DNA from: Archivesica marissinica
Lineage: Eukaryota; Mollusca; Bivalvia; Venerida; Vesicomyidae
Length of the DNA stretch: 64,000 nt
Direction: 5' to 3'
NCBI GenBank assembly: GCA_014843695.1
Contig: CM026397.1
Location: forward strand, 44,403,272 to 44,467,271
Part shown: positions 586 to 63,768 of the stretch, piece by piece
Layout: every line of letters starts with the position of its first letter
Position numbering within the stretch: the stretch's first letter is position 1
Position numbers and translations under genes: made by a program
The notes under the pieces: generated by a model
The model's input: only the letters and a program-made list of their open reading frames with translations
What the model was told of the DNA's origin: nothing
Database searches by the model: none

Positions 586-665
586 GCATTTGACTAGTAA
601 GCACACATGATGTCCTTGTATAGACCGACTGTATAACGAGGCACTATTATCCACCTTTTCCACAA
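586..665 (-). CDS. AP3D1: AP3D1 exon M (C-terminal ear)
   Basis: This 80-bp exon lies between acceptor CTGTTACAG (666-674) and donor GTAAGT (580-585). Read on from exon L it gives VVEKVDNSASLYSRS then IQGHHVCLLVKC. The stretch YSRSIQGHHVCLLVK is, as I recall it, identical in human AP3D1, which makes this the strongest identifier in the window. Reading through the donor would stop after about 10 more codons. Vertebrate proteins continue for about 30 residues after this point, so a last exon is expected outside the window. The first 10 exon bases and the acceptor are part of the 49-bp repeat array at 656-1243. Confidence 0.93.
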
Positions 666-1243
666 CTGTAACAGAAACACAGGTTGTACATACACGTAAT
701 TCAGTTTTCCACAACTGTAACAGAAACACAGGTTGTACATACACGTAATTCAGTTTTCCACAACTGTAACAGAAACACAGGTTGTACATACACGTAATTC
801 AGTTTTCCACAACTGTAACAGAAACACAGGTTGTACATACACGTAATTCAGTTTTCCACAACTGTAACAGAAACACAGGTTGTACATACACGTAATTCAG
901 TTTTCCACAACTGTAACAGAAACACAGGTTGTACATACACGTAATTCAGTTTTCCACAACTGTAACAGAAACACAGGTTGTACATACACGTAATTCAGTT
1001 TTCCACAACTGTAACAGAAACACAGGTTGTACATACACGTAATTCAGTTTTCCACAACTGTAACAGAAACACAGGTTGTACATACACGTAATTCAGTTTT
1101 CCACAACTGTAACAGAAACACAGGTTGTACATACACGTAATTCAGTTTTCCACAACTGTAACAGAAACACAGGTTGTACATACACGTAATTCAGTTTTCC
1201 ACAACTGTAACAGAAACACAGGTTGTACATACACGTAATTCAG
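656..1243 (-). repeat. 49-bp minisatellite x12 carrying the exon M 3' splice site
   Basis: Exactly 588 bp, or 12 copies of a 49-bp unit, nearly or fully identical. On the minus strand each unit contains a pyrimidine-rich tract, TTTCTGTTACAG and then TTGTGGAAAA, the first 10 bases of exon M. The copy at 656-704 supplies the real acceptor. The other 11 lie upstream of it in the intron. Using any of those reads GTG GAA AAC TGA, an immediate stop. Confidence 0.95.
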
Positions 1244-1867
1244 TTTTCAATTCTGCAGCATATTCAGCCTAAACCGGATCCCACATACCAGTTTACTTGG
1301 CTAAAAATCCAAAAATGTGTCCGTCCACTTCTCAGTAATAGCTTGCATGAAATATTATGAAACTTAAAATAAATATGTATCACAATCTGTGGTGGTTCAG
1401 GTGAACATTTCGTCAGGATCCAGTTAGTTATTGCCCGGAGCCTTTTTCCAGTACCCAAATGGTTGAATTTTATTAACTTAATATCACTATAGAGCGGTGT
1501 TGCATGTGAGACTTTTGAGATATAAATTCATCGAACATTCTTGTTTATCTTCCACCAATTTATCTGTCCAGAGCAAGTTCGACGGAGATGTATATTCATG
1601 GAATTTTCTTCTTTATCTTTTCGATTTATCTGTCCAGAGCAAGTTCCGAGGAGACAAAAATTGAAAAGATAAACAATAAAGTTCAATAAATTTATATCAT
1701 TGAAGTAAAATTTTCCTCCTAAGCCGTTATTACTCAACATCAACCGTAATGCCAAAGACATTATAATCGCAATCTATTTATTTTTCCCCAAGTCCATAAT
1801 ACAATGAGACGTTGTATTGTTCCACATTACGGCCGACGGCATATGGGATCAATAACGACAGACTGAC
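1244..1867. other. Intron L-M, non-repetitive part
   Basis: No exon, RNA gene or clear transposon is seen. There is one imperfect direct repeat of about 75-bp spacing (the segment with TTTATCTGTCCAGAGCAAG occurs near 1558 and 1625). Small open frames here have no recognisable content. Confidence 0.6.
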
Positions 1868-1992
1868 CTTTAAAATGATTATAGAAGCAAACTCTAAGTA
1901 GGGAAACATCAAAGTTTGGATCAAGAGGTGAACATTTCATGGTTGACTTTTCCGTAAGGTCCCCTGAACCCAGGAATGATGCGAAGTCTGGT
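1868..1992 (-). CDS. AP3D1: AP3D1 exon L (ear domain)
   Basis: This 125-bp exon lies between acceptor TCTTCTTTCAG (1993 up) and donor GTCAGT (1862-1867). It is entered in phase 2 and left in phase 1. It reads PDFASFLGSGDLTEKST, then MKCSPLDPNFDVSLLR, then VCFYNHFK. Human AP3D1 has a matching block (FAKLLESGDLS, then about 17 residues, then ICFHHHF) just before VVERVD. Length and order match, with no internal stop. The donor GTCAGT is weaker than the GTAAGT donors of its neighbours. Confidence 0.92.
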
Positions 1993-3182
1993 CTGAAAGA
2001 AGAGAGAAAATATTCCAATGATTTTGTTTAGTAGCAGTCCTTTTGTACGTACATTTATCGGCTCCTATAGCACAGCATTTGTTCATATCTCACTGCAATA
2101 TATATTGTTGATTTTTGAACTCGAGACATCAAATATCCATTGGATATTATGTAGGATATCTGTCAAGATATAATATATTTCAATTCTGGAAATGTTACTA
2201 CAACACACAACGAATATTTTGGACAGACACTTGAAGTTGTTTTATAAATTCTATAAGTAAGTATCACATCATATACCAGGATGGATGTAGATAGCACATG
2301 CGTGGGAGAACTAGAACTTTATACATTTTATATAAATACTTTTTATAAAAAACTGTATATACATACGTAAATAGGCAGAAGTGCATCCGATTGGACCACT
2401 CGAATGTAGTCCCAATAACTAATATAGTTAATTTTTCTTTTTGGTAAAAAATGCATTTTCATGACAGGCAGTGTTTTTTTTGTGTTTTTTGAGAAATTAT
2501 GTGACTTGAGAAGACTTCAGACTAGTTGATATGTAGAAAAGATGTGGTATAAGAAGGTTGGTATACTGTATTGTTTAGCAGAGGAATACAGTGTGTAAAC
2601 ACAGTGATGTTATTCACAGGTGCTGGCTATGCGAATCATTACATTTGTGATATTTTTGCTGTTTTCCAGTTAGATTTGAATACTTCTTCACAGTGGTATC
2701 AGAAGAAATGAAAGATTGGAAATATAAATGAACAGACTGTATGTTTTTATTATGTATTTAATAGGCAATTTATTTGTTGTTTTACAACCTGTAAAGCAGA
2801 GAGGCCAGCTACATGAATGACTCTTAATACATTTAACACAATATATTTAATTAATGGAAACGTCGGACTAAAATTAAGTTAGGCTGAACAAACTCTCATA
2901 CTTCATGGTGATGGTGCACCACGATGGTGGTGATGGTGGTGATAAACACTGTACGAATGGTTATGTTAGAGCACCAATATCTTAGGGCTCGGGGCAGTTT
3001 TGGCAATTTCTGATACTAGTATATTGGTATGTTTGTGAATTAGAACGACCGTTGCTGGTATTTCATGCTTGCTTGTATATTGATGCAAAAATAATTAAAA
3101 TTTTATAATAAAAGTACATGTCAACCAAATTGTTTGACGTCTCAGTTTTTCTATGCTTTCGGATTAATCCATGAAAACTTAC
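1993..3182. other. Intron K-L, mostly AT-rich unique sequence
   Basis: No coding exon is seen. A short GATGGTGGT microsatellite lies near 2903-2942. The rest is AT-rich with no repeat longer than a few bases. Confidence 0.6.
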
Positions 3183-3341
3183 CTGTTACACGGCACAGCA
3201 ACAAGGAAAGCACTACACGGCAACTCCAGACGGTATATCTAACTTATAATGTAAAACTTACCCTTTACACGGCACAGCAACAAGGAAAGCACTACACGGC
3301 AACTCCAGACGGAAATCTAACTTATCGTGTGTTGATCCTTC
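3183..3341 (-). repeat. 79-bp tandem duplication spanning the exon K donor
   Basis: Two copies of a 79-bp unit (3183-3261 and 3262-3340). Each holds about 57 bp of the exon K 3' end followed by GTAAGT on the minus strand. The copy at 3262 continues into the full exon. The copy at 3183 lacks an acceptor and the exon's 5' part, so it is a second, distal donor rather than a complete duplicate exon. Reading from the first copy into the second hits TAA just after the first donor (AAA GGG TAA). Confidence 0.9.
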
Positions 3342-3347
3342 ATCCGT
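3262..3347 (-). CDS. AP3D1: AP3D1 exon K (ear domain)
   Basis: This 86-bp exon lies between acceptor TTTGTTTGTAG (3348 up) and donor GTAAGT (3256-3261), phase 0 in and 2 out. It reads TDEGSTHDKLDFRLELP then CSAFLVAVPCK. Human AP3D1 has NDEGATHEKLDFRL in the same place, between KGTLSF and the SGDL block. I chose the proximal of two donors because extension to the distal donor at 3182 meets an in-frame stop. Both donors leave the same phase; the distal copy ends AACAG instead of AAAGG. Confidence 0.93.
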
Positions 3348-3434
3348 CTACAAACAAATAATTAATTTCAAACCAATTCTGTATATTACTGGTAATTACC
3401 TGCACGTAGATTAGATAGCTATGCCTTATCAGGG

Positions 3435-5129: not shown

Positions 5130-5270
5130 CTTAACCATATACGTCAAAGTTCCTTTCATCTTGGAAGCTTGTGTAATACTATCTACGGAGAATGCAAACT
5201 GCCCCTCATTACTGACGTCTGCAGGAAGCACAAACGGCACCTGAACAGCGTCATGTACCGACTGGCCCAT
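5130..5270 (-). CDS. AP3D1: AP3D1 exon J (ear domain)
   Basis: This 141-bp exon (47 codons, phase 0-0) lies between acceptor CTAATTTCAG (5271 up) and donor GTAAGC (5124-5129). It reads MGQSVHDAVQVPFVLPADVS, then NEGQFAFSVDSITQAS, then KMKGTLTYMVK. Human AP3D1 has SSVHDGVPVPFQLPPGVSNE at the same point, followed by KLKGTLSF. It follows exon I and precedes exon K exactly as in the human protein. The ATG at the start is internal, not a translation start. Confidence 0.94.
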
Positions 5271-6263: not shown

Positions 6264-6325
6264 TCTCTGTGGCCTAATTGTTAACGAGTCCGCCTATGGA
6301 GCAGGCGGTCAAAGGTTCGAACTTA
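6264..6325 (+). mobile_element. tRNA-like SINE head fragment
   Basis: It has an A-box-like GTGGCCTAATTGTTAACG and a B-box GGTTCGAACTT, with a GC stem (CCGCC/GGCGG) between them. It lacks a proper acceptor stem and runs straight into the 29-bp array, so it is a SINE head rather than a functional tRNA gene. Confidence 0.55.
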
Positions 6326-7662
6326 CACATCTAGTGAAACATGCATGTTGCTTACCCCTCTAGTGAGACAGGCATGTAACTTACCCCTCTAGTGAAACAT
6401 GCATGTAGCTTACCCCTCTAGTGAAACATGCATGTAACTTACCCCTCTAGTGAAACATGCATGTAACTTACCCCTCTAGTGAAACATGCATGTAGCTTAC
6501 CCCTCTAGTGAAACATGCATGTAGCTTACCCCTCTAGTGAAACATGCATGTAACTTACCCCTCTAGTGAAACATGCATGTAGCTTACCCCTCTAGTGAAA
6601 CATGCATGTAGCTTACCCCTCTAGTGAAACATGCATGTAACTTACCCCTCTAGTGAAACATGCATGTAGCTTACCCCTCTAGTGAAACATGCATGTAGCT
6701 TACCCCTCTAGTGAAACAGGCATGTAACTTACCCCTCTAGTGAAACAGGCATGTAACTTACCCCTCTAGTGAAACAGGCATGTAACTTACCCCTCTAGTG
6801 AAACAGGCATGTAACTTACCACTCTAGTGAAACATGCATGTAACTTACCCCTCTAGTGACACGGGCATAGAACTTACCCTCTAGTGACACATGCATGTAG
6901 CTTATCCCTCTAGTGAAACATGCATGTAGCTTATCCCTCTAGTGAAACATGCATGTAGCTTACCCCTCTAGTGACACATGTATGTAACTTACCCCTCTAG
7001 TGAAACATGCATGTAACTTACCCCTCTAGTGACACATGCATGTAACTTACCCATCTAGTGAGACATGCATGTAACTTACCCCTCTAGTGAAACATGCATG
7101 TAGCTTACCCCTCTAGTGAAACATGCATGTAGCTTACCCCTCTAGTGAAACATGCATGTAGCTTACCCCTCTAGTGAAACATGCATGTAGCTTACCCCTC
7201 TAGTGAAACATGCATGTAACTTACCCCTCTAGTGAAACATGCATGTAACTTACCCCTCTACTGAAACAGGCATGTAACTTACCCCTCTACTGAAACAGGC
7301 ATGTAACTTACCCCTCTAGTGAAACAGGCATGTAACTTACACCTCTAGTGAAACATGTGTGTAACTTACCCCTCTAGTGAAACATGCATGTAACTTACAC
7401 CTCTAGTGAAACAGGCATGTAACTTACCCCTCTAGTGAAACATGCATGTAACTTACCACTCTAGTGAAACATGCATGTAGCTTACCCCTCTAGTGAAACA
7501 TGCATGTAACTTACCCCTCTAGTGAAACAAGCATGTAACTTACCCCTCTAGTGAAACATGCATGTAACTTACCCCTCTAGTGAAACATGCATGTAACTTA
7601 CTCCTCTAGTGAGACAGGCATGTAACTTACCCCTCTAGTGAAACAGGCATGTAACTTACCCC
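6326..7662 (-). repeat. 29-bp minisatellite, about 46 copies, carrying the exon I 5' splice site
   Basis: The unit on the plus strand is ACTTACCCCTCTAGTGAAAC plus ATGCATGTA. On the minus strand each unit contains AGAGGG followed by GTAAGT (or GTAAGC), identical to the last six bases of exon I and its donor. The real donor is the rightmost copy (7654-7659). The rest follow it as about 46 further donor-like sites over 1.34 kb. Variation is mostly acat/acag and aact/agct. Confidence 0.95.
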
Positions 7663-7797
7663 TCTTAACAGCTTGGTATTGAGTGTATCCATGACGTTAA
7701 ACTCCAGGTTTTTTATATGGCTGCCAGACAGATTGGTGAACACAACAGACAGTACTATCTGGTCCGTTCTCTGTGAACTCACTCTTGTCTCACATGC
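7660..7797 (-). CDS. AP3D1: AP3D1 exon I (start of ear domain)
   Basis: This 138-bp exon (46 codons, phase 0-0) lies between acceptor GTTGATTTCAG (7798 up) and a consensus donor GTAAGT (7654-7659). It reads ACETRVSSQRTDQIVLSVVF, then TNLSGSHIKNLEFNVMD, then TLNTKLLRG. Human AP3D1 has TCDIRGSLQEDSQVTVAIVL followed by LKGMELSVLDSLNARM. The pattern is conserved as an immunoglobulin-like beta sandwich start. It follows a 36.9 kb intron and its 3' end seeds the 29-bp array. Confidence 0.93.
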
Positions 7798-8255: not shown

Positions 8256-9254
8256 TGTATCACTAATGATTCTTCAGTGTGTTTCATCACAAACTTTCAA
8301 ATAGCTTATTGTTGCATTTTTTTTCATTTTTCAAATAGTACTGGGCCCCGTTTTATCAACAACGTCGGTCGCAAGTCGGTCTTATCTTAAGACCGCTACT
8401 TGCGACGTTTCCTGCGACAATCGTACGACCGTTTTATCAACACGGTCGTAAGTCTTAGGGTGCAGCTAAGATTTTCTTTCGTCGTACGACCTTAAAAACA
8501 GTGACACAGTCCGAAATGTAAACTTCCGGTGCACGCATCTTCGCACGCAAATGTCAACATCGGACATGTTTAAAACACGGCGCCCCTGTATATATTATTC
8601 ATAACTTCTTTATTTCTTGGAATATGTTACTATTTCTTATATCGAATTAAACCTTACGCGCAGGCCTCTCCAGACATGCAATATATATTAAATCCAATAT
8701 GACGTAGTTGGTCAAATCCGTAGAAGAGATTTTTTAACACGCCGGTATTGGAAAGGAAAACACGGCCCCACTAAATCTTCCTTGTTACTGTGAATGTATA
8801 ATCTATTTCAGTATAACTGGTATGTTTCCATCGTGCAACAATATTTTAAATCTGATACGTTGTTTTCATATATTGAATTATTAAACATTTCAGACTTTTT
8901 ATTATGCTTTAAATAACTTATACATCGTTTTTGCGTAAATGCAAAACAGTGCTCCCACCCCAAAACTTCTTTGCTAATAGGATTATGTTGTTAAATATTA
9001 TTTCATTTTCAATGGTATGTTCCAGATTTGTGTCTGTAAATAAGTTGAGGCTATTGAATAGGGCCTACGGTATTTACATGTTACCACAATATCTAGTGAT
9101 GTAAATACTGAATAGACTCCATTCATTAATACACACTTTTGTATCAGCATGTCTTTTTATAACGGCGATTCTAGCATATATAAAATACAAATGTACAAGC
9201 TGTTATTGACTGGTCATACATTAGTCGTATATATCTGTGTGATGAGATTAATAT

Positions 9255-9750
9255 ATCAAATACAGACGGGTCAATAGTTCAGTGGTGAACACATTGGTCT
9301 GTAGATCCAAGGTTCGATCATTAGTCTTTAAGTCCATGAATAACGCCGTTCACGTAAAAAAACCAGATAATACTGGCATGGGTCTCTATTTGTTTTTGGG
9401 GTTTAATGTATCACCAACAGCTCAAGTAATATGGTGACTTTCCAGCTATTATTGGTGGAGGAAGATCCTGGGCGCCCCTCCATACAGTATGTCAAGTGTG
9501 AAAGGTCACCTGCCTGGGTAGAACCACAAACATTCCGAATAGTTTCCTTGCACGAAATAATCCGACACCCCTGGTGAGAGTCTAAACATCAGCTATGAGA
9601 GGCAAGTGATTCGAAGTCAACAACATTAACCAATCGACCACATACTCCGTCTCTGTCTCTATCACCGCAATATCCTCAAAAATCTAAAATGACTAATCTC
9701 TTCAAGAGACGTCGCTCATATGGGCAACCGGTAGCGACAATAATTAAGCT
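9255..9750 (+). mobile_element. SINE sequences inside Harbinger copy 1
   Basis: A tRNA-like head (GGGTCAATAGTTCAGTGGTG ... AAGGTTCGATCA) at about 9263-9325 is followed by body sequence and, at about 9675-9745, the SINE tail with CATATGGGCAACCGG. The same nest is at about 36735-37215 in copy 2, so the SINEs inserted before the element was duplicated. Confidence 0.65.
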
Positions 9751-10539
9751 CAAAATCACAATAGATCAAAAACGATGATAAATGGTCGCTTTAACTACCA
9801 CATTGTTGTCAAGTTAACTTGGTCGGTAAGTTATATTGAAACTAATTATAACCAGCACAATCATGGATGTTATGAAGTAGAAATAAAACAACGGAACTAT
9901 TCTAAATTTTATTATTTATAATGTCACTGCAAATATACCCCAATATAATTTTATAATACATATAGAGATACATATTGACACTTGTAACATTACTGATAAT
10001 ATGGGTAATGCAGTTTTTAATCCTCGCATATATGGAATAGAATTATCATAGAATTGCCAAGATGAATTTGTTTAAACAATATTTATTGCAAACCATAAAA
10101 CACATATAACATACAACAACATACATAATGAAAATGATTAAGTAGGAAGCTAAAAGTAACAATGCTTTGAATTTGTGGTACAAAGAATGTGTTTGTTGAA
10201 ATGTTGGCAGCACGTACGTTTAAGGACTTGAGTAAAGTCATTTATTACGTCACATATTGTTGTCTAAGTACGATTTAGCCTATGGCACAGTAGCATCATT
10301 TTCTATCATAAAAACACTTTTCAGCCATAATAAAAAGAAAATTTGTTTGTTAAGTGAATGATCGAATAATACTTTACTCAAAAACATAGAAAGCTTTAAT
10401 ACCACTCGTGACTAGCTTCACACTTGGTAATAATGCTTTCAATATTCATTTGGTGAAATATTATTCGATCATACACTGAAACAAACACATATCCTCTTAT
10501 AATTATATCGTAGGAACAAGAAAAAACAATAAAAAACTA

Positions 10540-10775
10540 GATCACATGGGCTTTTTACCCCGTTCGAGACCCCGCTATACCATACTAAAATCAGTCTTTC
10601 AGATGAGAATGAGAATTTAAACAGAGGTCTTGTGCCGGTGCTTTACACAATGCAAATAAAAGAACTGGAGGAGACATCATTGCACTATCCTCCAAATCTA
10701 ATATAACTAATCTCTTCAGTAGGTGTCGCTAAAATGGGCAACTGGTAACTATGATAAATAAACGTAAAACACTCA
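10540..10775 (+). mobile_element. 5'-truncated SINE inside Harbinger copy 1
   Basis: This resembles the 32303-32585 SINE body: TTTCAGATGAGAATG, GAGGTCTTGTGCCGGTG, AACTAATCTCTTC-like and GGGCAACTGGTAACTATGAT. A matching copy is at about 38025-38260 in the second Harbinger element. Confidence 0.65.
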
Positions 10776-11128
10776 CAGGTATTCATGTATTATGTATATC
10801 AACATATATATTGTATCGGATTGCTTTGTGTAATGTTACAGCTTCTGTTACAGTGTAGTGGGAAGTATATTGAAGCAGTTACATTTTCATACCAAAGTCT
10901 GTCTGTCACACCCTATGCAATCTGATACAACAAATTATATTTACTGTGAATCTATTTTCGTGTTTTGTTGCATCAACATTTCTGATTTCATAGTAAAAGA
11001 AGATTTGTTGCACAAGATATAGATTGAAGATCTGTAGTGAACACAGTATGATAGACAATCTTGTTTGTACACAGGCTTCAATACCATATAATTACCAGGG
11101 TGTTTTCATGCACATCTAATATATATAT

Positions 11129-11516
11129 ATATCTATTGTTTGCTTTATTTGTAGAAACCTTAAATCACAAAAATTAAGACCGGAAATTTCTTTCATAATT
11201 TTTAAAACTGTGCCACTTGTCAAAATGAAATCTTAATAGTCTATAAAAGAAAAGTACCAAACAGTATGCATTTGTATCACTGGATAGTTGCTCAGTTTTC
11301 ATCAGTTTTCGTGCCTTATTATATATATCGTTTGCTTTATTTGTGGAAACCTTAAATCACAAAAATTAAGACCGGAAATTTCTTTCATAATTTTTAAAAC
11401 TGTGCCACTTGTCAAAATGAAATCTTAATAGTCTATAAAAGAAAAGTACCAAACAGTATGCATTTGTATCACTGGATAGGTGCTCAGTTTTCATCAGTTT
11501 TCATCAGTTTTCAAGA
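11129..11516. repeat. ~200-bp tandem duplication unique to Harbinger copy 1
   Basis: The segment starting TTGCTTTATTTGTAGAAACC recurs at about 11332 (TTTGCTTTATTTGTGGAAAC), through CATCAGTTTTC. Copy 2 has it once (about 38655-38830). The duplication therefore arose after the two insertions separated. Confidence 0.8.
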
Positions 11517-12166
11517 TTTCTAAACTCTAAAGCCATATCATCAGGGAATCTGCAAGAAATAACATATAAAAACTCTATTATCATCAAACTTCTACATTTC
11601 TATCTGTTAAATTTGAACACTGGAATGATTGTGAACAAAATTTGGACATGCATCATTAATATTAAGCATTTGTGAGGGTGGACCTGACAGATATTAATTT
11701 TTTTAAGAACAATGTATAAGTGATTAGTACAGTGTATGTACATTAATATGTATTCCATAAATCTGGGTTGCTGTGACGAAACTAAATATATTTGGAGTTC
11801 GGCCTAATTCTGTTTTTGAAAAAACTATGGTTAACTTTTGTGTTTTTACATCGTTCTTCATTGTTAATGTTAGAATAATCAACTGTATAAATATTATTTA
11901 CTTTACAACATTTTCGAAACAAGATTATAATATTAAGCACTCTCGTTGAAAGCGTATAATTATGTAGTCATTCGTGTGGGACATAACCGGAGAAAACTCA
12001 CATGTCCGATTTGGGGACCACCGTACCATCTCACACACTTCTCAGTCAGTGTAAGGAACCCGGAATGCATTGACTAGAAGCGAGCGTGCTAATCACTACG
12101 CTAATCAGACAGCTAATCGAATAAACTTAGCTGAATTAATGATCATGTCGAAAAGAGTTCACCTAC

Positions 12167-12237
12167 CTGTTGATGCCATGAAAATCTGCGACTGGACAAT
12201 ACATCACCCTTTGATAGGTATCTAAATCAATAAGCAT
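12167..12237 (-). pseudogene. Harbinger transposase HTH exon remnant, copy 1
   Basis: It is flanked by an acceptor (TTCATTTCAG) and a donor (CAG then GTAGGT). In one frame copy 2 reads FRYLSKGDVLSKVADFHGIN, matching the helix-turn-helix stretch of Harbinger transposases (FLATGSF...GVSxSTVSR type). Here a 2-bp loss (tgtccagt versus tgtctaaagt) breaks that frame. A stop/frameshift just upstream is shared with copy 2. It is not functional. Confidence 0.7.
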
Positions 12238-12499
12238 CTGAAATGAACAAAACGTTTCAACTATTATTGATACATAAAATAGTCAGTGTTTTCAACACAC
12301 TATAATTATATTACAATGCAACTTTGTGGTCATTGGTTGTGGTAGTAGTTTGTAACCCAATATACATGTAAACACAGAGTTCGATATATTCCGATTGATT
12401 TCAAACTGGACAGTGTATCTATATATAATTATGGTCATCCCGACTCATCGTGTCTATCATCGCATTAAGATCAATCATGACAACTTGTAATATGGATTA

Positions 12500-12800
12500 C
12501 ACTTCTTTTGGCTGTCCAATTCGCGCAGTAGTTAGCCATGCTCGCTTCTCACCAATTCAACCCTGGTTCGATGGACAGTATGTGATATGGTACGGTGACA
12601 GATTGAACAGGACGATTTCCTCCGGGCGTCCGTGGCATGGTGTCGGATTTGGAATCAAACTGTCCCATGTTCGATACTCGGTCAGTCCACGTATGTAGTG
12701 TCATTGAGCAAGTCACCTCACAGACATAGTTTAGTACTGGTTAACCGCTTAGGTCGGCTAAGCCTGTCCAGAAAAACATTTGCATTTGGACACGTGGGGA
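12500..12800 (+). mobile_element. Two tRNA-like SINE heads inside Harbinger copy 1
   Basis: The first head is around 12510-12575 (CGCAGTAGTTAGCC ... CCTGGTTCGATGGAC). The second, 12626-12800 (GGCATGGTGTCGGATTTGGA ... GTTCGATACTC ... TAACCGCTTAGGTCGGCTAA), belongs to the same family as 48408-48590. Matching copies lie at about 40010-40300. Open frames over this region are SINE sequence. Confidence 0.65.
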
Positions 12801-13140
12801 CGTTTAATTATGTGTACGAATACTGTAGCAATACACGAGCATTTAAAAAGAAACAGACGACATTATAAACACAAGCATTTAATTCCCTACCGGCACACTG
12901 TATCAATTTACTTAGTTAATGCATTGCAGAAACAGAATACGTATCGTCATTCAGTTCCAAAAACATAATAAGTCATGACTTGTGTGTAGTATCGATATAA
13001 ATAGCGATAGATTCTTATGGAAGTAGCGTCCCTTGTAATCTTAAAATAGAAATAAAGGCCTACTGTACAGAAATTACGCAAATAACACTGATATGCACCT
13101 TAATAATGCAAGATATAGAAATATATCAATTTCACTTTAC

Positions 13141-13351
13141 CTAGGTCAAACCGGGTATCGAATGAGAGTGGTTCGTCCCCTTGTCCAAGTCATTCCCCCA
13201 CCATATCCACAAGCAAAACAACCCATAGCCTCATCCTGCGATATCGGGACAGGATATTGGTGTCACACGTCTCCAATGTCTCTACCGGCCCTGAATATTC
13301 TTGCATCACATCACGTCTCTGATGCACGGATTCTGCTGATTCGGCCGCCAT
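13141..13351 (-). pseudogene. Harbinger transposase N-terminal exon remnant, copy 1
   Basis: An ATG at 13351-13349 opens about 53 codons including NILSRYRRM and VVLLVDMVGE, the spacing seen near the N terminus of Harbinger transposases, and then meets TGA. In a neighbouring frame the segment continues as DLDKGTNHSHSIPGLT and a TAG at the donor (CCTAG/GTAAAG, 13135-13140). The frameshift and the TAG are shared with copy 2. Confidence 0.65.
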
Positions 13352-13553
13352 TTTTAAGACTTTTTCCGAAGTTGCGATTGCATCGAACCAGTCGTAAAGT
13401 TAAGACTTTATTTACGATATCTTAGCTGCGACTTTGTTGATAAAACGGACCGTGGTCTTAACTTAGACATTACGACGGCGTAACTCGGTCTTAAGCAATA
13501 ATCTTAACTAAGACTGACTTACGACCGTTGATAAAACGGGGCCCTGGGTTGCA

Positions 13554-15670: not shown

Positions 15671-15689
15671 GATCAATAAATACAGAGAC

Positions 15690-18600
15690 CTAGATGTAGA
15701 GGTATTGCTAGATCATTACTGGGACAGAGACCTAGATGTATTGCTAGATCATTACTGGGACAGAGACCTAGATGTAGAGGTATTGCTAGATCATTACTGG
15801 GACAGAGACCTAGATGTAGAGGTATTGATAGATCATTACTGGGACAGAGACCTAGATGTAGAGGTATTGCTAGATCATTACTGGGACAGAGACCTACAGG
15901 TATTGCTAGATCATTACTGGGACAGAGACCTAGATGTACATGTATTGCTAGAGCATTACTGGGACAGAGACCTAGATGTAGAGGTATTGCTAGATCATTA
16001 CTGGGACAGAGACATAGATGTAGAGGTATTGCTAGATCATTACTGGGACAGAGACCTAGATGTAGAGGTATTGCTATATCATTACTGGGACAGAGACCTA
16101 GATGTACAGGTATTGCTAGATCATTACTGGGACAGAGACCTAGATGTAGAGGTATTGCTAGATCATTACTGGGACAGAGACCTAGATGTAGGCTACAGGT
16201 ATTGCTAGATCATTACTGGGACAGAGACCTAGATGTATTGCTAGATCATTACTGGGACAGAGACCTAGATGTAGAGGTATTGCTAGATCATTACTGGGAC
16301 AGAGACCTAGAGGTATTGCTAGATCATTACTGGGACAGAGACCTAGATGTAGAGGTATTGATAGATCATTACTGGGACAGAGACCTAGATGTAGAGGTAT
16401 TGATAGATCATTACTGGGACAGAGACCTAGATGTAGAGGTATTGCTAGATCATTACTGGGACAGAGACCTAGATGTATTGCTAGATCATTAATGGGACAG
16501 AGACCTAGATGTATTGCTAGATCATTACTGGGACATAGACCTAGATGTATTGCTAGATCATTACTGGGACAGAGACCTAGATGTACATGTATTGCTAGAT
16601 CATTACTGGGACAGAGACCTAGATGTACAGATATTGCTAGAGCATTACTGGGACAGAGACCTAGATGTAGAGGTATTGCTAGATCATTACTGGGACAGAT
16701 ACCTAGATGTAGAGGTATTGATAGATCATTACTGAGACAGAGAACTGATGTACAGGTATTGCTAGATCATTACTGGGACAGAGACCTAGATGTACAGGTA
16801 TTGCTAGATCATTACTGGGACAGAGACCTAGATGTAGAGGTATTGATAGATCATTACTGAGACAGAGAACTTATGTACAGATATTGCTAGATCATTACTG
16901 GGACATAGACCTAGATGTACAGGTATTGCTAGATCATTACTGGGACATAGACCTAGATGTATTGATAGATCATTACTGGGACAGAGACCTAGATGTATTG
17001 CTAGATCATTACTGGGACAGAGACCTAGATATATTGCTAGATCATTACTGGGACAGAGACCTAGATGTATTGCTAGATCATTACTGGGACAGAGACCTAG
17101 GTGTATTGATAGATCATTACTGGGACAGAGACCTAGATGTATTGCTAGATCATTACTGGGACAGAGACCTAGATGTATTGCTAGATCATTACTGGGACAG
17201 AGACCTAGATGTATTGCTAGATCATTACTGGGACAGAGACCTAGATGTATTGCTAGATCATTACTGGGACAGAGACCTAGATGTAGAGGTATTGCTAGAT
17301 CATTACTGGGACAGAGACCTAGATGTAGAGGTATTGATAGATCATTACTGGGACAGAGACCTAGCTGTAGAGGTATTGCTAGATCATTACTGGGACAGAG
17401 ACCTAGATGTACAGGTATTGCTAGATCATTACTGGGACAGAGACCTAGATGTAGAGGTATTGCTAGATCATTACTGGGACAGAGACCTAGATGTAGAGGT
17501 ATTGCTAGATCATTACTGGGACAGAGACCTAGATGTAGAGGTATTGCTAGATCATTACTGGGACAGAGACCTAGATGTAGAGGTATTGCTAGATCATTAC
17601 TGGGACAGAGACCTAGATGTAGAGGTATTGCTAGATCATTACTGGGACAGAGACCTAGATGTAGAGGTATTGCTAGATCATTACTGGGACAGAGACCTAG
17701 ATGTAGAGGTATTGATAGATCATTACTGGGACAGAGACCTAGATGTATTGCTAGATCATTACTGGGACAGAGACCTAGATGTAGAGGTATTGCTATATCA
17801 TTACTGGGACAGAGACCTAGATGTACAGGTATTGCTAGATCATTACTGGGACAGAGACCTAGATGTATTGCTAGATCATTACTGGGACAGAGACCTAGAG
17901 GTATTGCTAGATCATTACTGGGACAGAGACCTGATGTACAGGTATTGCTAGATCATTACTGGGACAGAGACCTAGATGTACAGGTATTGCTAGATCATTA
18001 CTGGGACAGAGACCTAGATGTAGAGGTATTGATAGATCATTACTGAGACAGAGAACTGATGTACAGGTATTGCTAGATCATTACTGGGACAGAGACCTAG
18101 ATGTACAGGTATTGCTAGATCATTACTGGGACAGAGACCTAGATGTAGAGGTATTGATAGATCATTACTGAGACAGAGAACTGATGTACAGGTATTGCTA
18201 GATCATTACTGGGACAGAGACCTAGATGTACAGGTATTGCTAGATCATTACTGGGACAGAGACCTAGATGTAGAGGTATTGATAGATCATTACTGAGACA
18301 GAGAACTGATGTACAGGTATTGCTAGATCATTACTGGGACAGAGACCTAGATGTACAGGTATTGATAGATCATTACTGAGACAGAGAACTGATGTACAGA
18401 TATTGCTAGATCATTACTGGGACATAGACCTAGATGTACAGGTATTGCTAGATCATTACTGGGACAGAGACCTAGATGTATTGATAGATCATTACTGGGA
18501 CAGAGACCTAGATGTATTGCTAGATCATTACTGGGACAGAGACCTAGATGTAGAGGTATTGATAGATCATTACTGGGACAGAGACCTAGATGTACAGGTA

Positions 18601-21600
18601 TTGCTAGAGCATTACTGGGACAGAGACCTATATGTAGAGGTATTGATAGATCATTACTGGAACAGAGACCTAGATGTAGAGGTATTGATAGATCATTACT
18701 GGGACAGAGACCTAGATGTACAGATATTGCTAGAGCATTACTGGGACAGAGACCTAGATGTAGAGGTATTGCTATATCATTACTGGGACAGAGACCTAGA
18801 TGTAGAGGTATTGCTAGATCATTACTGGGACAGAGACCTAGATATACAGATATTGCTAGAGCATTACTGGGACAGAGACCTAGATGTAGAGGTATTGATA
18901 GATCATTACTGGGACAGAGACCTAGATGTACAGGTATTGCTAGATCATTACTGGGACAGAGACCTAGATGTATTGCTAGATCATTACTGGGACAGAGACC
19001 TAGATGTAGAGGTATTGATAGATCATTACTGAGACAGAGAACTGATGTACAGGTATTGCTAGATCATTACTGGGACAGAGACCTAGATGTATTGCTAGAT
19101 CATTACTGGGACAGAGACCTAGATGTACAGATATTGCTAGATCATTACTGGGACAGAGACCTAGATGTAGAGGTATTGCTAAATCATTACTGGGACAGAG
19201 ACCTAGATGTACAGGTATTGCTAGAGCATTACTGGGACAGAGACCTAGATGTACAGGTATTGCTAGATCATTACTGGGACAGAGACATATATGTAGAGGT
19301 ATTGCTAGATCATTACTGGGACAGAGACTTAGATGTACAGGTATTGCTAGGTCATCACTGGGACAGAGACCTAGATGTATTGCTAGATCATTACTGGGAC
19401 AGAGACCTAGATGTATTGCTAGATCATTACTGGGACAGAGACCTAGATGTATTGCTAGATCATTACTGGGACAGAGACCTAGATGTATTGCTAGATCATT
19501 ACTGGGACAGAGACCTATATGTATTGCTAGATCATTACTGGGACAGAGACCTAGATGTATTGCTAGATCATTACTGGGACAGAGACCTAGATGTAGAGGT
19601 ATTGATAGATCATTACTGGGACAGAGACCTAGATGTAGAGGTATTGATAGATCATTACTGAGACAGAGAACTGATGTACAGGTATTGCTAGATCATTACT
19701 GGGACAGATACCTATATGTATTGCTAGATCATTACTGGGACAGAGACCTAGATGTATTGCTAGATCATTACTGGGACAGAGACCTAGATGTAGAGGTATT
19801 GATAGATCATTACTGGGACAGAGACCTAAATGTAGAGGTAATGATAGATCATTACTGAGACAGAGAACTGATGTACAGGTATTGCTAGATCATTACTGGG
19901 ACAGAGACCTAGATGTATTGCTAGATCATTACTGGGACAGAGACCTAGATGTATTGCTAGATCATTACTGGGACAGAGACCTAGATGTAGAGGTATTGAT
20001 AGATCATTACTGAGACAGAGAACTGATGTACAGGTATTGCTAGATCATTACTGGGACAGAGACCTAGATGTAGAGGTATTGCTAGATCATTACTGGGACA
20101 GAGACCTAGATGTATTGCTAGATCATTACTGGGACAGAGACCTAGATGTATTGCTAGATCATTACTGGGACAGAGACCTAGATGTATTGCTAGATCATTA
20201 CTGGGACAGAGACCTGGATGTAGAGGTATTGATAGATCATTACTGAGACAGAGAACTGATGTACAGGTATTGCTAGATCATTACTGAGACAGAGACCTAG
20301 ATGTATTGCTAGATCATTACTGGGACAGAGACCTAGATGTATTGCTAGATCATTACTGGGACAGAGACCTAGATGTAGAGGTATTGATAGATCATTACTG
20401 GGACAAAGACCTAGATGTAGAGGTATTGCTAGATCATTACTGGGACAGAGACCTAGATGTAGAGGTATTGCTAGATCATTACTGGGACAGAGACCTAGAT
20501 GTACAGGTATTGCTAGATCATTACTGGGACAGAGAACTAGATGTACAGGTATTGCTAGATCATTACTGGGACAGAGACCTAGATGTTTTGCTAGATCATT
20601 ACTGGGACAGAGACCTAGATGTACAGGTATTGCTAGATCATTACTGGGACAGAGACCTAGATGTAGAGGTATTGCTAGATCATTACTGGGACAGAGAACT
20701 AGATGTACAGGTATTGATAGATCATTACTGGGCCAGAGACCTAGATGTATTGCTAGATCATTAATGGGACAGAGACCTAGATGTATTGCTAGATCATTAC
20801 TGGGACATAGACCTAGATGTATTGCTAGATCATTACTGGGACAGAGACCTAGATGTACATGTATTGCTAGATCATTACTGGGACAGAGACCTAGATGTAC
20901 AGGTATTGCTAGAGCATTACTGGGACAGAGACCTAGATGTAGAGGTATTGCTAGATCATTACTGGGACAGAGACCTAGATGTAGAGGTATTGATAGATCA
21001 TTACTGAGACAGAGAACTGATGTACAGGTATTGCTAGATCATTACTGGGACAGAGACCTAGATGTACAGGTATTGCTAGATCATTACTGGGACAGAGACC
21101 TAGATGTAGAGGTATTGATAGATCATTACTGAGACAGAGAACTTATGTACAGATATTGCTAGATCATTACTGGGACATAGACCTAGATGTACAGGTATTG
21201 CTAGATCATTACTGGGACATAGACCTAGATGTATTGATAGATCATTACTGGGACAGAGACCTAGATGTATTGCTAGATCATTACTGGGACAGAGACCTAG
21301 ATGTATTGCTAGATCATTACTGGGACAGAGACCTAGATGTATTGCTAGATCATTACTGGGACAGAGACCTAGATGTATTGCTAGATCATTACTGGGACAG
21401 AGACCTAGGTGTATTGCTAGATCATTACTGGGACAGAGACCTAGATGTATTGCTAGATCATTACTGGGACAGAGACCTAGATGTATTGCTAGATCATTAC
21501 TGGGACAGAGACCTAGGTATTGCTAGATCATTACTGGGACAGAGACCTAGATGTAGAGGTATTGCTAGATCATTACTGGGACAGAGACCTAGATGTAGAG

Positions 21601-39666: not shown

Positions 39667-39739
39667 CTGTTGATGCCATGAAAATCTGCGACTTTAGACA
39701 ATACATCACCCTTTGATAGGTATCTAAATCAATAAGCAT
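39667..39739 (-). pseudogene. Harbinger transposase HTH exon remnant, copy 2
   Basis: The 73 bp lie between TTCATTTCAG and GTAGGT. They read FRYLSKGDVLSKVADFHGIN in the frame that matches Harbinger transposases. The preceding bases (ATGCTTATTGATTTAG) need one extra base to join that frame, so a 1-bp loss is inferred, shared with copy 1. Confidence 0.72.
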
Positions 39740-40635
39740 CTGAAATGAACAAAACGTTTCAACTATTATTGATACATAAAACAGTCAGTGTTTTCAACAC
39801 ACTATAATTATATTACAATGCAACTTTGTGGTCATTGGTTGTGGTAGTAGTTTGTAACCCAATATACATGTAAACACAGAGTTCGATATATTCCGATTGA
39901 TTTCAAACTGGACAGTGTATCTATATATAATTATGGTCATCCCGACTCATCGTGTCTATCATCGCATTAAGATCAATCATGACATCTTGTAATATGGATT
40001 ACACTTCTTTTGGCTGTCCAATTCGCGCAGTAGTTAGGCACTCGCTTCTCACCAATTCAACCCTGGTTCGATGGACAGTATGTGATATGGTACGGTGACA
40101 GATTGAACAGGATGATTTCCTCCGGGCGTCCGTGGCATGGTGTCGGATTTGGAATCAAACTGTCCCATGTTCGATACTCGGTCAGTCCACGTATGTAGTG
40201 TCATTGAGCAAGTCACCTCACAGACATAGTTTAGTACTGGTTAACCGCTTAGGTCGGCTAAGCCTGTCCAGAAAAACATTTGCATTTGGTCACGTGGGGA
40301 CGTTTAATTATGTGTACGAATACTGTAGCAATACACGAGCATTTAAAAAGAAACAGACGACATTATAAACACAAGCATTTAATTCCCTACCTGCACACTA
40401 TCAATTTACTTAGTTAATGCGTTGCAGAAACAGAATACGTATCGTCATTCAGTTCCAAAATCATAATAAGTCATGACTTGTGTGTAGTATAAATAGCGAT
40501 AGATTCTTATGGAAGTAGCATCCCTTGTAATCTTAAAATAGAAATAAGGACCTACTGTACAGAAATGTGTACGCAAATAACACTGATATGCACCTTAATA
40601 ATGCAAGATATAGAAATATATCAATTTCACTTTAC

Positions 40636-40843
40636 CTAGGTCAAACCGGGTATCGAATGAGAGCGGTTCGTCCCCTTGTCCAAGTCATTCACCCACCATA
40701 TCCTCAAGCAAGACAATCCATAGCCTCGTCCTGCGATATCGGGCCAGGATATTGGTGTCACACGTCTCCAATGTCTCTACCGGCCCTGAATATTCTTGCA
40801 TCACGTCTCTCTGATGCACGGATTCTGCTGATTCGGCCGCCAT
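40636..40843 (-). pseudogene. Harbinger transposase N-terminal exon remnant, copy 2
   Basis: Same structure as 13141-13351: ATG at 40843, NILSRYR-type segment, frameshift around VGE/TGA, then DLDKGTNRSHSIPGLT and TAG directly before the donor GTAAAG (40630-40635). Three bases shorter than copy 1. Confidence 0.65.
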
Positions 40844-41064
40844 TTTTAAGACTTTTTCCGAAGTTGCGACTGCATCGAACCAGTCGTAAAGTTAAGACTT
40901 TATTTACGATATCTTAGCTGCGACTTTGTTGATAAAACGGACCGTGGTCTTAACTAAGAGGTTACGACGGCGTAACTCGGTCTTAAGCAATAATCTTAAC
41001 TAAGACTGACTTACGACCGTTGATAAAACGGGGCCCTGGATCATTAATCAATGCCTTTTGAGTT

Positions 41065-44688: not shown

Positions 44689-44736
44689 CATTTTCACACT
44701 GGGATTCTCAGCTAATAATCTGTAACTTGACATTGG
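44689..44736 (-). CDS. AP3D1: AP3D1 exon H (48-bp exon)
   Basis: This exon of 16 codons, phase 0-0, lies between acceptor TTATTATTTTCAG (44737 up) and donor GTAAGAATT (44688 down). It reads PMSSYRLLAENPSVKM. Human AP3D1 has PPESSYSLLAENSYVKM directly before TCDIRG, which here opens exon I. It separates a 4.6 kb intron from the 36.9 kb one and has minisatellites within about 50 bp on both sides. The match and phase on both sides make the call firm despite its small size. Confidence 0.92.
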
Positions 44737-48590: not shown

Positions 48591-48617
48591 CAAAATTGCT
48601 GAAACAATAACAAAATC

Positions 48618-49317
48618 AGCGATATAAGAAAGAAAGAGCACCTAAGCATTAACTGGAGTATCGATCTGGGAGAGAGACACCTGCTCCAGCGATATAAGAA
48701 AGAAAGAGCACCTTAGCATTAACTGGAGTATAGATCTGGGAGAGAGACACCTGCTCCAGCGATATAAGAAAGAAAGAGCACCTTAGCATTAACTGGAGTA
48801 TCGATCTGGGAGAGAGACACCTGCTCCAGCGATATAAGAAAGAAAGAGCACCTTAGCATTAACTGGAGTATCGATCTGGGAGAGAGACACCTGCTCCAGC
48901 GATATAAGAAAGAAAGAGCACCTTAGCATTAACTGGAGTATCAATCTGGGAGAGAGACACCTGCTCCAGCGATATAAGAAAGAAAGAGCACCTTAGCATT
49001 AACTGGAGTATCAATCTGGGAGAGAGACACCTGCTCCAGCGATATAAGAAAGAAAGAGCACCTTAGCATTAACTGGAGTATCAATCTGGGAGAGAGACAC
49101 CTGCTCCAGCGATATAAGAAAGAAAGAGCACCTTAGCATTAACTGGAGTATCGATCTGGGAGAGAGACACCTGCTCCAGCGATATAAGAAAGAAAGAGCA
49201 CCTTAGCATTAACTGGAGTATCCATCTGGGAGAGAGACACCTGCTCCAGCGATATAAGAAAGAAAGAGCACCTTAGCATTAACTGGAGTATCAATCTGGG
49301 AGAGAGACACCTGCTCC
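48618..49317 (-). repeat. 70-bp minisatellite x10 carrying the exon G 5' splice site
   Basis: Exactly 700 bp or 10 units. On the minus strand each unit begins GGAGCAG then GTGTCTCTCTCCCAG. GGAGCAG is the last seven bases of exon G and GTGTCT its donor. The copy at 49311-49317 is in the exon, so nine further donor copies follow in the intron. Each unit also holds CTCTCTCCCAG, which resembles an acceptor. Units differ mainly at one base (tcgatct/tcaatct). Confidence 0.95.
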
Positions 49318-49451
49318 TTGGATGGCGTGGTTATCCCCCCTGTCTCCTCATACCCGTCTGCTGTTAATCTATTTTTAGATTTCTTTTTCTCCTTCCTCTC
49401 TCTCTTTTCTCGTTTTTCTTTCTTTTCTTTCTTCTTCTTTCTGGAATGTGA
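49311..49451 (-). CDS. AP3D1: AP3D1 exon G (Lys/Glu-rich hinge)
   Basis: 141 bp, 47 codons, phase 0-0. It reads SHSRKKKKEKKEKREKRERK, then EKKKSKNRLTADGYEE, then TGGITTPSKEQ. Two acceptors are possible. The outer (CTTTCAG, 49452 up) keeps phase 0; the inner (TCCAG) would shift the frame and stop. The very basic stretch fits the charged hinge of AP-3 delta, and it must join exon H (EQ/PMSSY; human EEEQLPPESSY). The donor GTGTCT is non-consensus after GT and is repeated ten times in the adjoining array. Confidence 0.88.
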
Positions 49452-52422: not shown

Positions 52423-52563
52423 CTTAATTTCCTCATCTTCAGAGGACAGCTCTGGAACATGCGACACCTTGACCTTCACAGGCTCTTCACTGGGGGCCTC
52501 CGGTGGTTTATCGTTAATGGAGTTAGCGTCGTTCCCCGACAACCAGAAATCTATGTCATTCAT
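52423..52563 (-). CDS. AP3D1: AP3D1 exon F (acidic hinge)
   Basis: 141 bp, 47 codons, phase 0-0, between acceptor GCTATCTTCAG (52564 up) and donor GTATGC (52417-52422). It reads MNDIDFWLSGNDANSINDKP, then PEAPSEEPVKVKVSH, then VPELSSEDEEIK. The placement comes from phase and position between exons E and G. The sequence itself has no close counterpart that I can recall in the vertebrate hinge, which is poorly conserved. An acidic cluster follows the basic segments, as usual in this hinge. Confidence 0.85.
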
Positions 52564-53512: not shown

Positions 53513-53692
53513 CTTATCACCATTTTCTACGTTGTTTTCATCAATATTATTCACCATGACAGGGCCATCAGCCCTGGGGGACTGCAGCGGGGTATTGTCC
53601 CCGTCTATAACCTCATGGTCTTCCATCATCAAGCTGGGCTCCGCCGCCGCCCCTGCCAATGCCGCTTTATGGGATTTCTTCTTACGTTTTTT
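53513..53692 (-). CDS. AP3D1: AP3D1 exon E (hinge)
   Basis: 180 bp, 60 codons, phase 0-0, between acceptor CATTATTTGTTAG (53693 up) and donor GTAAGT (53507-53512). It reads KKRKKKSHKAALAGAAAEPS, then LMMEDHEVIDGDNTPLQ, then SPRADGPVMVNN, then IDENNVENGDK. It opens with a basic run that continues exon D's Lys-rich tract, then turns acidic and Asn-rich. It is assigned by phase, splice signals and position; little of it is conserved with vertebrates. Confidence 0.87.
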
Positions 53693-56966: not shown

Positions 56967-57141
56967 CGTATCTTTTTCTTCAGCTTTCTCTTCCTTCCGT
57001 TTCTTCTTTTCTTTTCTACTTTCTTTCTCTCTTCTATGTTTACTCTTCTTTTTCTCCGTCCCATCTTCCGTTGGTGACAATGGTTGATCGGCTACAATAT
57101 GATGCGTTCTCACAGGCAGGATTTCATTGGGTTGCAAAGGT
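56967..57141 (-). CDS. AP3D1: AP3D1 exon D (Lys-rich hinge)
   Basis: 175 bp, phase 2 in and 0 out, between acceptor TTAATCACTTCAG (57142 up) and donor GTTTGT (56961-56966). After completing GA/A it reads PLQPNEILPVRTHHIVADQP, then LSPTEDGTEKKKSKHRRE, then KESRKEKKKRKEEKAEEKDT. Human AP3D1 has LDKPLADSEKLPIQKHR followed by SPEKD and EKKSKKPKKKEKKHKEKE, in the same order. This is the best conserved stretch of the basic hinge. Confidence 0.92.
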
Positions 57142-57599: not shown

Positions 57600-57676
57600 T
57601 CATCGAGGTTGATGTCCAGTTTCTTGTACAATTCATCTCCTCCGCCATCTTCTTGGTCGGACATTGTGCTTGCACC
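57600..57676 (-). CDS. AP3D1: AP3D1 exon C
   Basis: 77 bp, phase 0 in and 2 out, between acceptor ATGATTTCAG (57677 up) and donor GTATGC (57594-57599). It reads GASTMSDQEDGGGDELYKKL then DINLD and GA of the next Glu. Human AP3D1 has ENALPSDEDDKDPNDPYRAL then DIDLDK, followed by PLADSEKLP as exon D requires. Confidence 0.92.
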
Positions 57677-62628: not shown

Positions 62629-62724
62629 GGCAATTTTTCACAATTATTACTCATGAAGGTAGGATTAATCTATTCTTGCCACAAAAGTTGATGAGTTACA
62701 ACAAAGCTTGTGATTATCTCTAAC

Positions 62725-62885
62725 CTCCGGCATCTCAACGACGGTGCTGACTTCATGGTGCTGTGCAACGTCCTCCTCATCACTCTCCTCGGCCCCTTTC
62801 TTCCTACGCCTCTTCTTCTTCGACTGTTTTCTCTTCCTTCCTTCTGTAGCATCCAGTTGCATGTACTTGTCTGATGCAGTCATAC
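62725..62885 (-). CDS. AP3D1: AP3D1 exon B (start of basic hinge)
   Basis: 161 bp, phase 1 in and 0 out, between acceptor TACATTTATAG (62886 up) and donor GTTAGA (62719-62724). After completing Gly it reads MTASDKYMQLDATEGRKRKQ, then SKKKRRRKKGAEESDEED, then VAQHHEVSTVVEMPE. Human AP3D1 has LPMSDQYVKLEEERRHRQ, a basic run, TESDED and VDIVTEEMPE in that order. The Ser-Asp-Glu cluster is a likely acidic/casein-kinase-type stretch (inference). Confidence 0.93.
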
Positions 62886-62929
62886 CTATAAATGTATCAC
62901 AAACTGAATTCCTGTGACAACTTTCTCAT

Positions 62930-63155
62930 AATAGTTTATACAAATTTATTTTAGCTCAATTGCGAAACAAGTTCTTACAACTTATATTAATCACTCTCGA
63001 GACCTCATTCCTGATGGAATCCATCGCCATGAGGGAGAGAGAAGAGGCAATGTGGATTTAAATGCCTTGCCTAAGGGCACAATCGTAACGAGCCTTGCCT
63101 AAGGGCACAATCGTAACGAGCGTTGCCTAAGGGCACAATCGTAACGGTTCCAGCA
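62930..63155 (-). mobile_element. tRNA-derived SINE, minus strand, with local 34-bp triplication
   Basis: Same family as 4846-5074 (CTGATGGAATCCATCGCCAT). The segment GCCTAAGGGCACAATCGTAA occurs three times at 63068-63147, a small tandem expansion inside the SINE. The tRNA-like end is lost after GTTCCAGC. Confidence 0.78.
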
Positions 63156-63228
63156 AACGTTTTGTGGAATCCTGCTAACAGATAAACGTAGATAATAACA
63201 TATCCTCCTTGGTGGAGGTAACGATGCT

Positions 63229-63710
63229 ATAAAACCACATACCTGGTACGTGTAGAGGCACATACCTGGTACGTGTAGAGGCACATACCTGGTACGTGTA
63301 GAGGCACATACCTGGTACGTGTAGAGGCACTGATAGATGCTATAAAGCCACATACCTGGTACGTGTAGAGGCACTGATAGATGCTATAAAGCCACATACC
63401 TGGTACGTGTAGAGGCACTGATAGATGCTATAAAGCCACATACCTGGTACGTGTAGAGGCACATACCTGGTACGTGTAGAGGCACTGATAGATGCTATAA
63501 ACCCACATACCTGGTACTTGTAGAGGCACTGATAGATGCTATAAAGCCACATACCTGGTACGTGTAGAGGCACTGATAGATGCTATAAAGCCACATACCT
63601 GGTACGTGTAGAGGCACTGATAGATGCTATAAACCCACATACCTGGTACGTGTAGAGGCACTGATAGATGCTATAAAGCCACATACCTGGTACGTGTAGA
63701 GGCACTGATA
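63229..63710 (-). repeat. 44/23-bp minisatellite carrying the exon A 5' splice site, 13 donors
   Basis: On the minus strand each unit has TGCCTCTACACGTACCAG then GTATGT; the long unit adds GGCTTTATAGCATCTATCAG. The bases TATCAGTGCCTCTACACGTA and CCAG are also the last 24 of exon A. The true donor is 63681-63686. Twelve more copies follow downstream, one with a change (tacttg). Read-through from exon A stays open for long stretches. Confidence 0.95.
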
Positions 63711-63768
63711 GATCAATTTCTGCAACCGGTATACCAGACATCGTCTCACCAAGCGCAGCTTTTCTTCT
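63687..63768 (-). CDS. AP3D1: AP3D1 exon A (end of trunk/hinge junction)
   Basis: 82 bp, phase 0 in and 1 out, between acceptor GATGGTTTTCAG (63769 up) and donor GTATGT (63681-63686). It reads RRKAALGETMSG then IPVAEIDLSVPLHVP and G of Gly. Human AP3D1 has EHIPVVQIDLSVPLKVPG at this point, followed by LPMSDQYVKLE as exon B requires. The exon is enclosed by repeats: a 37-bp array starts 3 bp beyond its acceptor and the 44/23-bp array covers its donor. Confidence 0.93.

Follow-up and report, generated by a model that had tools for sequence, protein, structure and literature searches.

Minisatellites that copy a splice site are known from amphioxus, where the available passages of two papers describe "mirages" as minisatellite-like tandem duplications across exon-intron borders, at donors as well as acceptors, with units of 10 to about 160 bp (PMC3087553, PMC3902484). 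They occur in Adh3, the globins BflGb6 and BflGb9, troponin C and PGBD5, many copies preserve AG or GT, and splicing is reported to be undisturbed (PMC3087553, PMC3902484). The former paper has them debated both as a peculiarity of amphioxus and as a route by which introns might be gained, and the Rogers model, in which introns are gained through tandem duplication of AG/GT sequences, is cited (PMC3087553). In human, the minisatellite units of IFI6 (G1P3, 6-16) hold a splice donor, according to the title of Turri 1995, and the passages on internal tandem repeats in segmental duplications describe minisatellites of ~30 bp at borders that alter splicing or create introns (PMC2812944). Among molluscs, intron 3 of an abalone TSSK1-like gene carries many repeats of a 27-bp unit whose length varies among individuals; it is an intronic array like those of the clam, and the passages are silent on a splice site in the unit (PMC6905558). 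A literature search for splice-site minisatellites in molluscs found none.

Here, we analysed a 64,000-nt stretch of the genome of the clam Archivesica marissinica (the window), which contains the 3' part of AP3D1 on the minus strand. As in the amphioxus mirages so described, its arrays cover donors and acceptors and many copies carry AG or GT. Unlike them, they belong to a mollusc rather than a cephalochordate, reach 46 copies, are read from genomic sequence, and are set in a very high array load, with 57% of the window, 55% of 134 kb and 34% of the sampled exon flanks of other genes under tandem arrays. The clam units at exons A, G, I and K contain a splice donor, as the title of Turri 1995 states for IFI6, and a duplication with splice signals adjoins the exon, as in the Rogers model as cited. 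The human segmental-duplication repeats belong, in the passages cited, to young duplicated primate genes (PMC2812944), whereas AP3D1 is a conserved gene. The original prediction that no such system had been described has to be withdrawn, since the mirages, as far as these passages go, are of the same kind, and IFI6 is so for donors, going by its title. The kind as such is already known, from amphioxus and human IFI6.

Tandem arrays over AP3D1 splice sites

The thirteen exons in the window (A-M; Table 1) have canonical AG/GT sites and are open in one frame, and the joined frame of exons A-N remains open down to the stop. A comparison of the predicted protein with the PDB gives human AP-3 delta (3.5e-96). 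Over residues 370-571, read with the exon-proximal junctions, it shares 86% identity with the AP3D1 of Mactra antiquata at full coverage, and its ear is collinear with the Mactra protein. This identity points to a bivalve near Mactra and led us to reject amphioxus as the source. Junctions G/H, I/J, K/L and L/M read identically in sequences P0001 and P0002. The conserved protein is readable without any extra exon, which, at the level of the predicted protein, differs from the Rogers model with its new intron flanked by repeats inside an old exon.

Five of the 26 borders of these exons lie inside arrays detected with TRF, at the donors of A, G, I and K and at the acceptor of M, so that both 5' and 3' borders are hit, a mirage-like trait. 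These are the same borders at which the original prediction had seen repeats copying the splice site, and its main unit lengths (44/23, 70, 29, 79 and 49 bp) are correct by TRF. It had also put the copied exon sequence at 6 to 57 bases; the copying and the lower end stand, and the upper end is 64 by TRF. Unit length differs from site to site, from 29 to 79 bp, and because the unit sequences are unlike one another the arrays represent separate events, as first proposed.

Table 1. Exons of AP3D1 in the window and the tandem arrays at their borders (positions in nt of the window)
Feature	Position	Strand	Basis	Details
Exon A	63687..63768	-	splice sites and frame; homology	
Exon B	62725..62885	-	splice sites and frame	
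Exon C	57600..57676	-	splice sites and frame	
Exon D	56967..57141	-	splice sites and frame	
Exon E	53513..53692	-	splice sites and frame	
Exon F	52423..52563	-	splice sites and frame	
Exon G	49272..49451	-	splice sites and frame	
Exon H	44689..44736	-	splice sites and frame	
Exon I	7660..7797	-	splice sites and frame	
Exon J	5130..5270	-	splice sites and frame	
Exon K	3262..3347	-	splice sites and frame	
Exon L	1868..1992	-	splice sites and frame	
Exon M	586..665	-	splice sites and frame	
Array at exon A donor	63223..63713	-	TRF, two overlapping rows	44-bp units and shorter variants (44/23); 13 donor copies; 27 exon bases
Array at exon G donor	48617..49317	-	TRF	70-bp unit, 10 copies; 46 exon bases
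Array at exon I donor	6320..7665	-	TRF	29-bp unit, 46 copies; 6 exon bases
Tandem duplication at exon K donor	3174..3325	-	TRF	79-bp unit, only 1.9 copies; 64 exon bases
Array at exon M acceptor	656..1248	-	TRF	49-bp unit, 12 copies; 10 exon bases

A sixth spanning array lies at 64,871, just beyond the window, and is the sole one in 23 further AP3D1 borders, two of which fell below the splice-score cut yet were retained. Spanning arrays are thus present at 12% of the located AP3D1 borders (6/50), which represent part of the gene and leave out the exons between the first exon and ~97,100 as well as a probable short exon around 93,900.

Probable random seeding and possible seeding near borders

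We consider it likely that the AP3D1 border arrays are mirage-type minisatellites, that is, random duplications that fell over borders, were tolerated and then grew. Short tandem duplications would arise and expand in many introns of the clam genome, and an occasional one would happen to cover an exon border. It would be tolerated because the exon-touching copy keeps a complete splice site, presumably the one used by the splicing machinery, everything beyond turning into intron; growth and homogenisation would then lead to 2 to 46 copies. The earlier suggestion that selection tolerates growth at borders is, in our judgement, a fair reading.

As a null model, the 42 merged arrays of the window were seeded at random, wholly exonic seeds being rejected. 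When detected interspersed repeats are taken out of the sequence open to seeding, 3.6 border-spanning arrays are expected (P(≥5) = 0.29). Seeding in all uncovered sequence gives 1.7 (P(≥5) = 0.03), which the observed five of 26 exceed; this excess, and a modest crowding of array starts at the edge of the intron, run against random seeding. Both would fit a preferential onset of tandem growth at exon borders, where duplication might be promoted, for example, by the splicing, transcription or chromatin of the adjoining intron end, the former only if interspersed repeats count as possible seed sites. In unique sequence, array starts number 3.3 per kb up to 80 bases from a border versus 1.7 per kb at 200-1400 bases, and even with detected interspersed repeats removed their density in these first 80 bases of the intron is 1.9 times that further in (P = 0.007). 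We nevertheless find this alternative unlikely. Removing the interspersed repeats detectable in a small sample reduced the near-border excess from about fourfold to twofold, so undetected transposons may account for the remainder. Moreover, the near-border density predicts 15.8 arrays that include exon bases, versus five observed (P(≤5) = 0.002), which places the excess within the intron rather than over the splice site.

Spanning arrays in other genes

We compared AP3D1 with a sample of three families, the adaptin, kinesin and myosin genes, in which 68 loci, 6 of them duplicates, gave 62 unique exons and 124 exon ends; 19 ends with no splice site above the cut were excluded, and matches with in-frame stops (20/62) were retained. 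Arrays span 5 of 104 borders (about 5%), where 2.9 to 8.2 are expected, at four donors and one acceptor with units of 35 to 96 bp. A recount with TRF rows left unmerged returned the same five arrays (5/105). An additional kinesin array has a 113-bp unit that carries an acceptor and P-loop codons. L043 was rejected as spanning, since its scored donor lies inside the array, and the open frame and homology put the donor before it. Others do not span when read by their splice sites: in L045 the donor, below the score cut, is located before its array, and the arrays of L030 and L072 start 8 and 2 bases into the intron, respectively, the donor of L072 having been placed by hand from homology.

The rate is higher in the window (5/26 vs 5/104, Fisher P = 0.027), a further point against random seeding, and the located AP3D1 gene compares with the other genes at P = 0.18 (6/50 vs 5/104, Fisher). 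As the count in the other genes is near expectation, spanning arrays appear to be a background effect across several genes rather than a product of splice-site seeding. The proposed initiation of arrays at splice sites is accordingly not supported, either here or in the window, where five arrays were observed against 3.6 expected once detected interspersed repeats are excluded. It seems unlikely that, in the clam lineage, a splicing- or transcription-linked process favours the onset of tandem duplication at ~100 bases or less from an exon border; if it did, ~1/20 exon borders genome-wide would be loaded with a splice-site array, and borders would be a steady supply of new splice sites and introns.

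Spare splice sites and the reading frame

Under random duplication and tolerance, as we favour, the copies beyond the exon are intron; the original prediction saw in them "tens of equal competing splice sites". We checked 76 spare AP3D1 splice sites, and none keeps the AP3D1 frame; none of the unit lengths is a multiple of 3. On the predicted frame, only the exon-touching copy at each border can yield the normal protein, and at the protein level the idea of equal competitors is unsupported. Spare signals are kept in nearly all full-length copies of the arrays at I (43/45), G (9/9) and M (12/12), and a motif scan found the spare donors kept at A (8/8) and K (2/2). In some arrays of other genes they are worn, spare copies having lost AG or GT: they are kept in 4/8 full-length copies of the L006 array and in 2/5 of the kinesin array. 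The high retention in AP3D1 fits recent homogenised arrays and would equally be expected of sites that are in use. It speaks for the copies being functional alternative splice sites that selection maintains, either for regulated isoforms or for adjusting the output of AP3D1 via nonsense-mediated decay. So does human IFI6, in which two downstream repeat units are said, in the introduction of PMC4526556, to act as splice donors, unlike the clam with its frame-breaking spare sites. We hold such a function to be very unlikely, as all spare sites checked break the frame, the unit lengths are not divisible by 3, splice-signal columns are not clearly better preserved than the remaining columns of the arrays, and the signals are lost in at least half of the copies in the L006 and kinesin arrays.

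That the arrays are assembly artefacts is barely credible: tandem arrays are difficult to assemble, and one amphioxus mirage was apparently misassembled in the draft genome, as the passages of PMC3087553 have it, but substitutions distinguish copies within the I and G arrays, one array in a kinesin stretch has 51 versus 23 units in two near-identical copies on different contigs, like real length variation, and some 40 false arrays would be required in the window. Near-exon arrays in near-identical copies of other genes, AP3D1 not among them, differ in length in 4/8 pairs.

A bivalve with arrays on ~5% of sampled borders, and on 12% of those located in AP3D1, would offer a larger natural experiment, both for asking which of several identical adjacent sites the splicing machinery picks and for studying intron gain. 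The AP3D1 model of Mactra antiquata opens with ~16 five-residue repeats, resembling a splice-site array translated as protein, and is a warning to annotators about border arrays read as protein.

AP3D1 splice sites inside tandem arrays

The window occupies positions 44403272-44467271 of contig C12 in the 1.54-Gb genome (G000). The fourteen 3′ exons of AP3D1, A to N on the minus strand, all end at canonical AG/GT sites; their joined frame is open as far as the stop, and human AP-3 delta matches both the product (3.5e-96) and an exon further upstream (1.6e-26). Identity to Mactra antiquata AP3D1 (P0001) reaches 86% over residues 370-571, and the junctions G/H, I/J, K/L and L/M are read identically in P0001 and in another homologue (P0002). 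Judged by this one gene, the animal would be a bivalve related to Mactra rather than amphioxus.

The share of sequence in tandem arrays called by TRF is 57% for the window and 55% for a 134-kb region. Five of the 26 borders of exons A to M lie inside such arrays with exon bases copied, confirming the original prediction on this point. One of 23 further AP3D1 borders is spanned outside the window and the acceptor of N is not, giving 6 of 50 located borders, a set that lacks some 5′ exons. Other arrays only come near: the acceptors of A, F and G have one starting 3, 6 and 8 bases away, respectively, and at four borders more upstream in the gene the distance is 3 to 14 bases. Between exons H and I, the intron also holds a duplicated or transposed block and a long minisatellite.

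Spanned borders and other features in AP3D1 and a kinesin gene
Feature	Position	Description
A donor		array copies 27 exon bases (TRF)
G donor		array copies 46 exon bases (TRF)
I donor		array copies 6 exon bases (TRF)
K donor		64 exon bases copied; plain duplication, 1.9 copies (TRF)
M acceptor		array copies 10 exon bases (TRF)
Further donor	64,871 (outside window)	spanned; 52-bp unit, 3 copies
Upstream exon	C12:44489634	match to human AP-3 delta
Exon with RVQAI-like motif	82,855-82,981	AP3D1 exon
Minisatellite	15,682-24,836	42-bp unit, ~229 copies, 9.2 kb; intron H-I
Duplicated block	~8,300-13,400 and ~35,800-41,000	two ~5 kb stretches, same orientation, nearly identical series of open frames
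N run	~28,060-29,060	1000 N in a row, either an assembly gap or withheld sequence; other loci also hold N runs up to 1000
Kinesin L076	G000:C6:90884200-90885400	113-bp unit with acceptor and P-loop codons, 6 tandem copies

Duplicate loci bear on whether such arrays are real. Array length differs in four of eight pairs compared and is equal in three, one pair being unalignable. In the clearest pair, L020 (C17) and L021 (small contig C2063), possibly two haplotypes, the loci are 98.3% identical and carry one 21-bp array at 51 versus 23 units. Judged from the assembly, these differences fit real length variation, and misassembly might also have produced them.

Splicing across the arrays

Most likely, a duplication over a donor would leave the exon-proximal donor intact and the remainder would become intron; over an acceptor, the last copy would keep the intact site, the remainder again being intron. 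The conserved AP3D1 protein is obtained when exon-proximal sites are chosen. Scanning the five arrays gave 81 splice sites, 76 of them spare, and none of these 76 keeps the frame. We infer that the cell uses the exon-proximal copy. Among full-length copies, spare signals are mostly intact in AP3D1 (I, 43/45; G, 9/9; M, 12/12), and variably worn at loci in other genes (L005, 16/19; L029, 8/9; L068, 5/6; L006, 4/8; kinesin array, 2/5). In the kinesin array, the acceptor AG is gone from the middle copies.

Where arrays start

The original prediction also proposed that tandem growth is started at exon borders or is tolerated there by selection. Each of the 42 merged window arrays was reduced to a single unit, and these units were placed anew at random; any seed falling entirely within an exon was discarded, and a border counted as spanned when covered with at least 4 exon bases. 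Over all sequence, the mean was 1.7 spanning arrays (P of 5 or more = 0.03); with interspersed repeats excluded it was 3.6 (P = 0.29). We think the latter null the fairer, because young inserts had less time to seed arrays; its repeats were those detected through self-comparison of ~320 kb, and a several-kb duplicated stretch within the window was treated as interspersed.

Searches for the Adaptin_N, kinesin and myosin families provided 68 exon loci, of which 62 were unique; each was taken with flanks of 1.5 kb. An acceptable splice site was present at 105 of 124 exon ends. Arrays occupy 34% of these flanks. Six spanning arrays (at least 4 exon bases) were initially counted at the 105 ends, and six further arrays start within 10 bases of a splice site. 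L043 was dropped on inspection, and the final count is 5 of 104 borders (four donors, one acceptor), with the same five cases in unmerged TRF rows; L076, noticed via six overlapping matches in tandem, was left out of it. The difference from located AP3D1 borders is not significant (6/50; Fisher P = 0.18), and that from the window alone is (5/26; P = 0.027), the window being a selected sample chosen for its striking look.

The density of array starts peaks just inside introns: successive bins out to 80 bases have 3.3, 2.4, 1.9 and 2.4 per kb, versus ~0.6 per kb beyond 200 bases. In the first 80 bases, 3 to 13% of the uncovered sequence belongs to detected interspersed repeats; beyond 200 bases their share is 40 to 48%. 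Once these repeats are removed, a 1.9-fold near-border excess is left (3.3 vs 1.7 starts per kb, P = 0.007), which transposons that escaped detection would shrink further. This excess at intron ends is modest. The five spanning arrays in other genes compare with 8.2 expected at deep unique-sequence density, 2.9 at raw deep density and 15.8 at near density; the splice site itself is therefore not a preferred start, and arrays entering exons are, if anything, thinned out. The data offer no good evidence that arrays are specially seeded at splice sites.

Comparable systems

The AP3D1 border arrays are a system of known kind, in a phylum for which we found no case in the open-licence literature, where titles and abstracts gave no recognisable border-spanning example from a mollusc. 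Human IFI6 is reportedly among the known comparable cases. Contrary to the earlier view that no such system had been described, amphioxus globins and Adh3 have exon-intron boundaries with minisatellite-like tandem duplications, called mirages, which the accessible text presents as length-variable, thought harmless to splicing and a proposed intron source (PMC3087553); PGBD5 and troponin C were added in PMC3902484, and human tandem repeats at boundaries are treated in PMC2812944. For abalone, the available part of PMC6905558 reports an intronic 27-bp minisatellite and mentions no splice site in its unit.

The annotated start of P0001 (residues 1-95) consists of ~16 imperfect five-residue repeats like RVQAI, a motif that also belongs to an AP3D1 exon of this clam. 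From sequence, the repeats look like the translation of a tandem array that, in the sister genus, sits within that exon or next to it.
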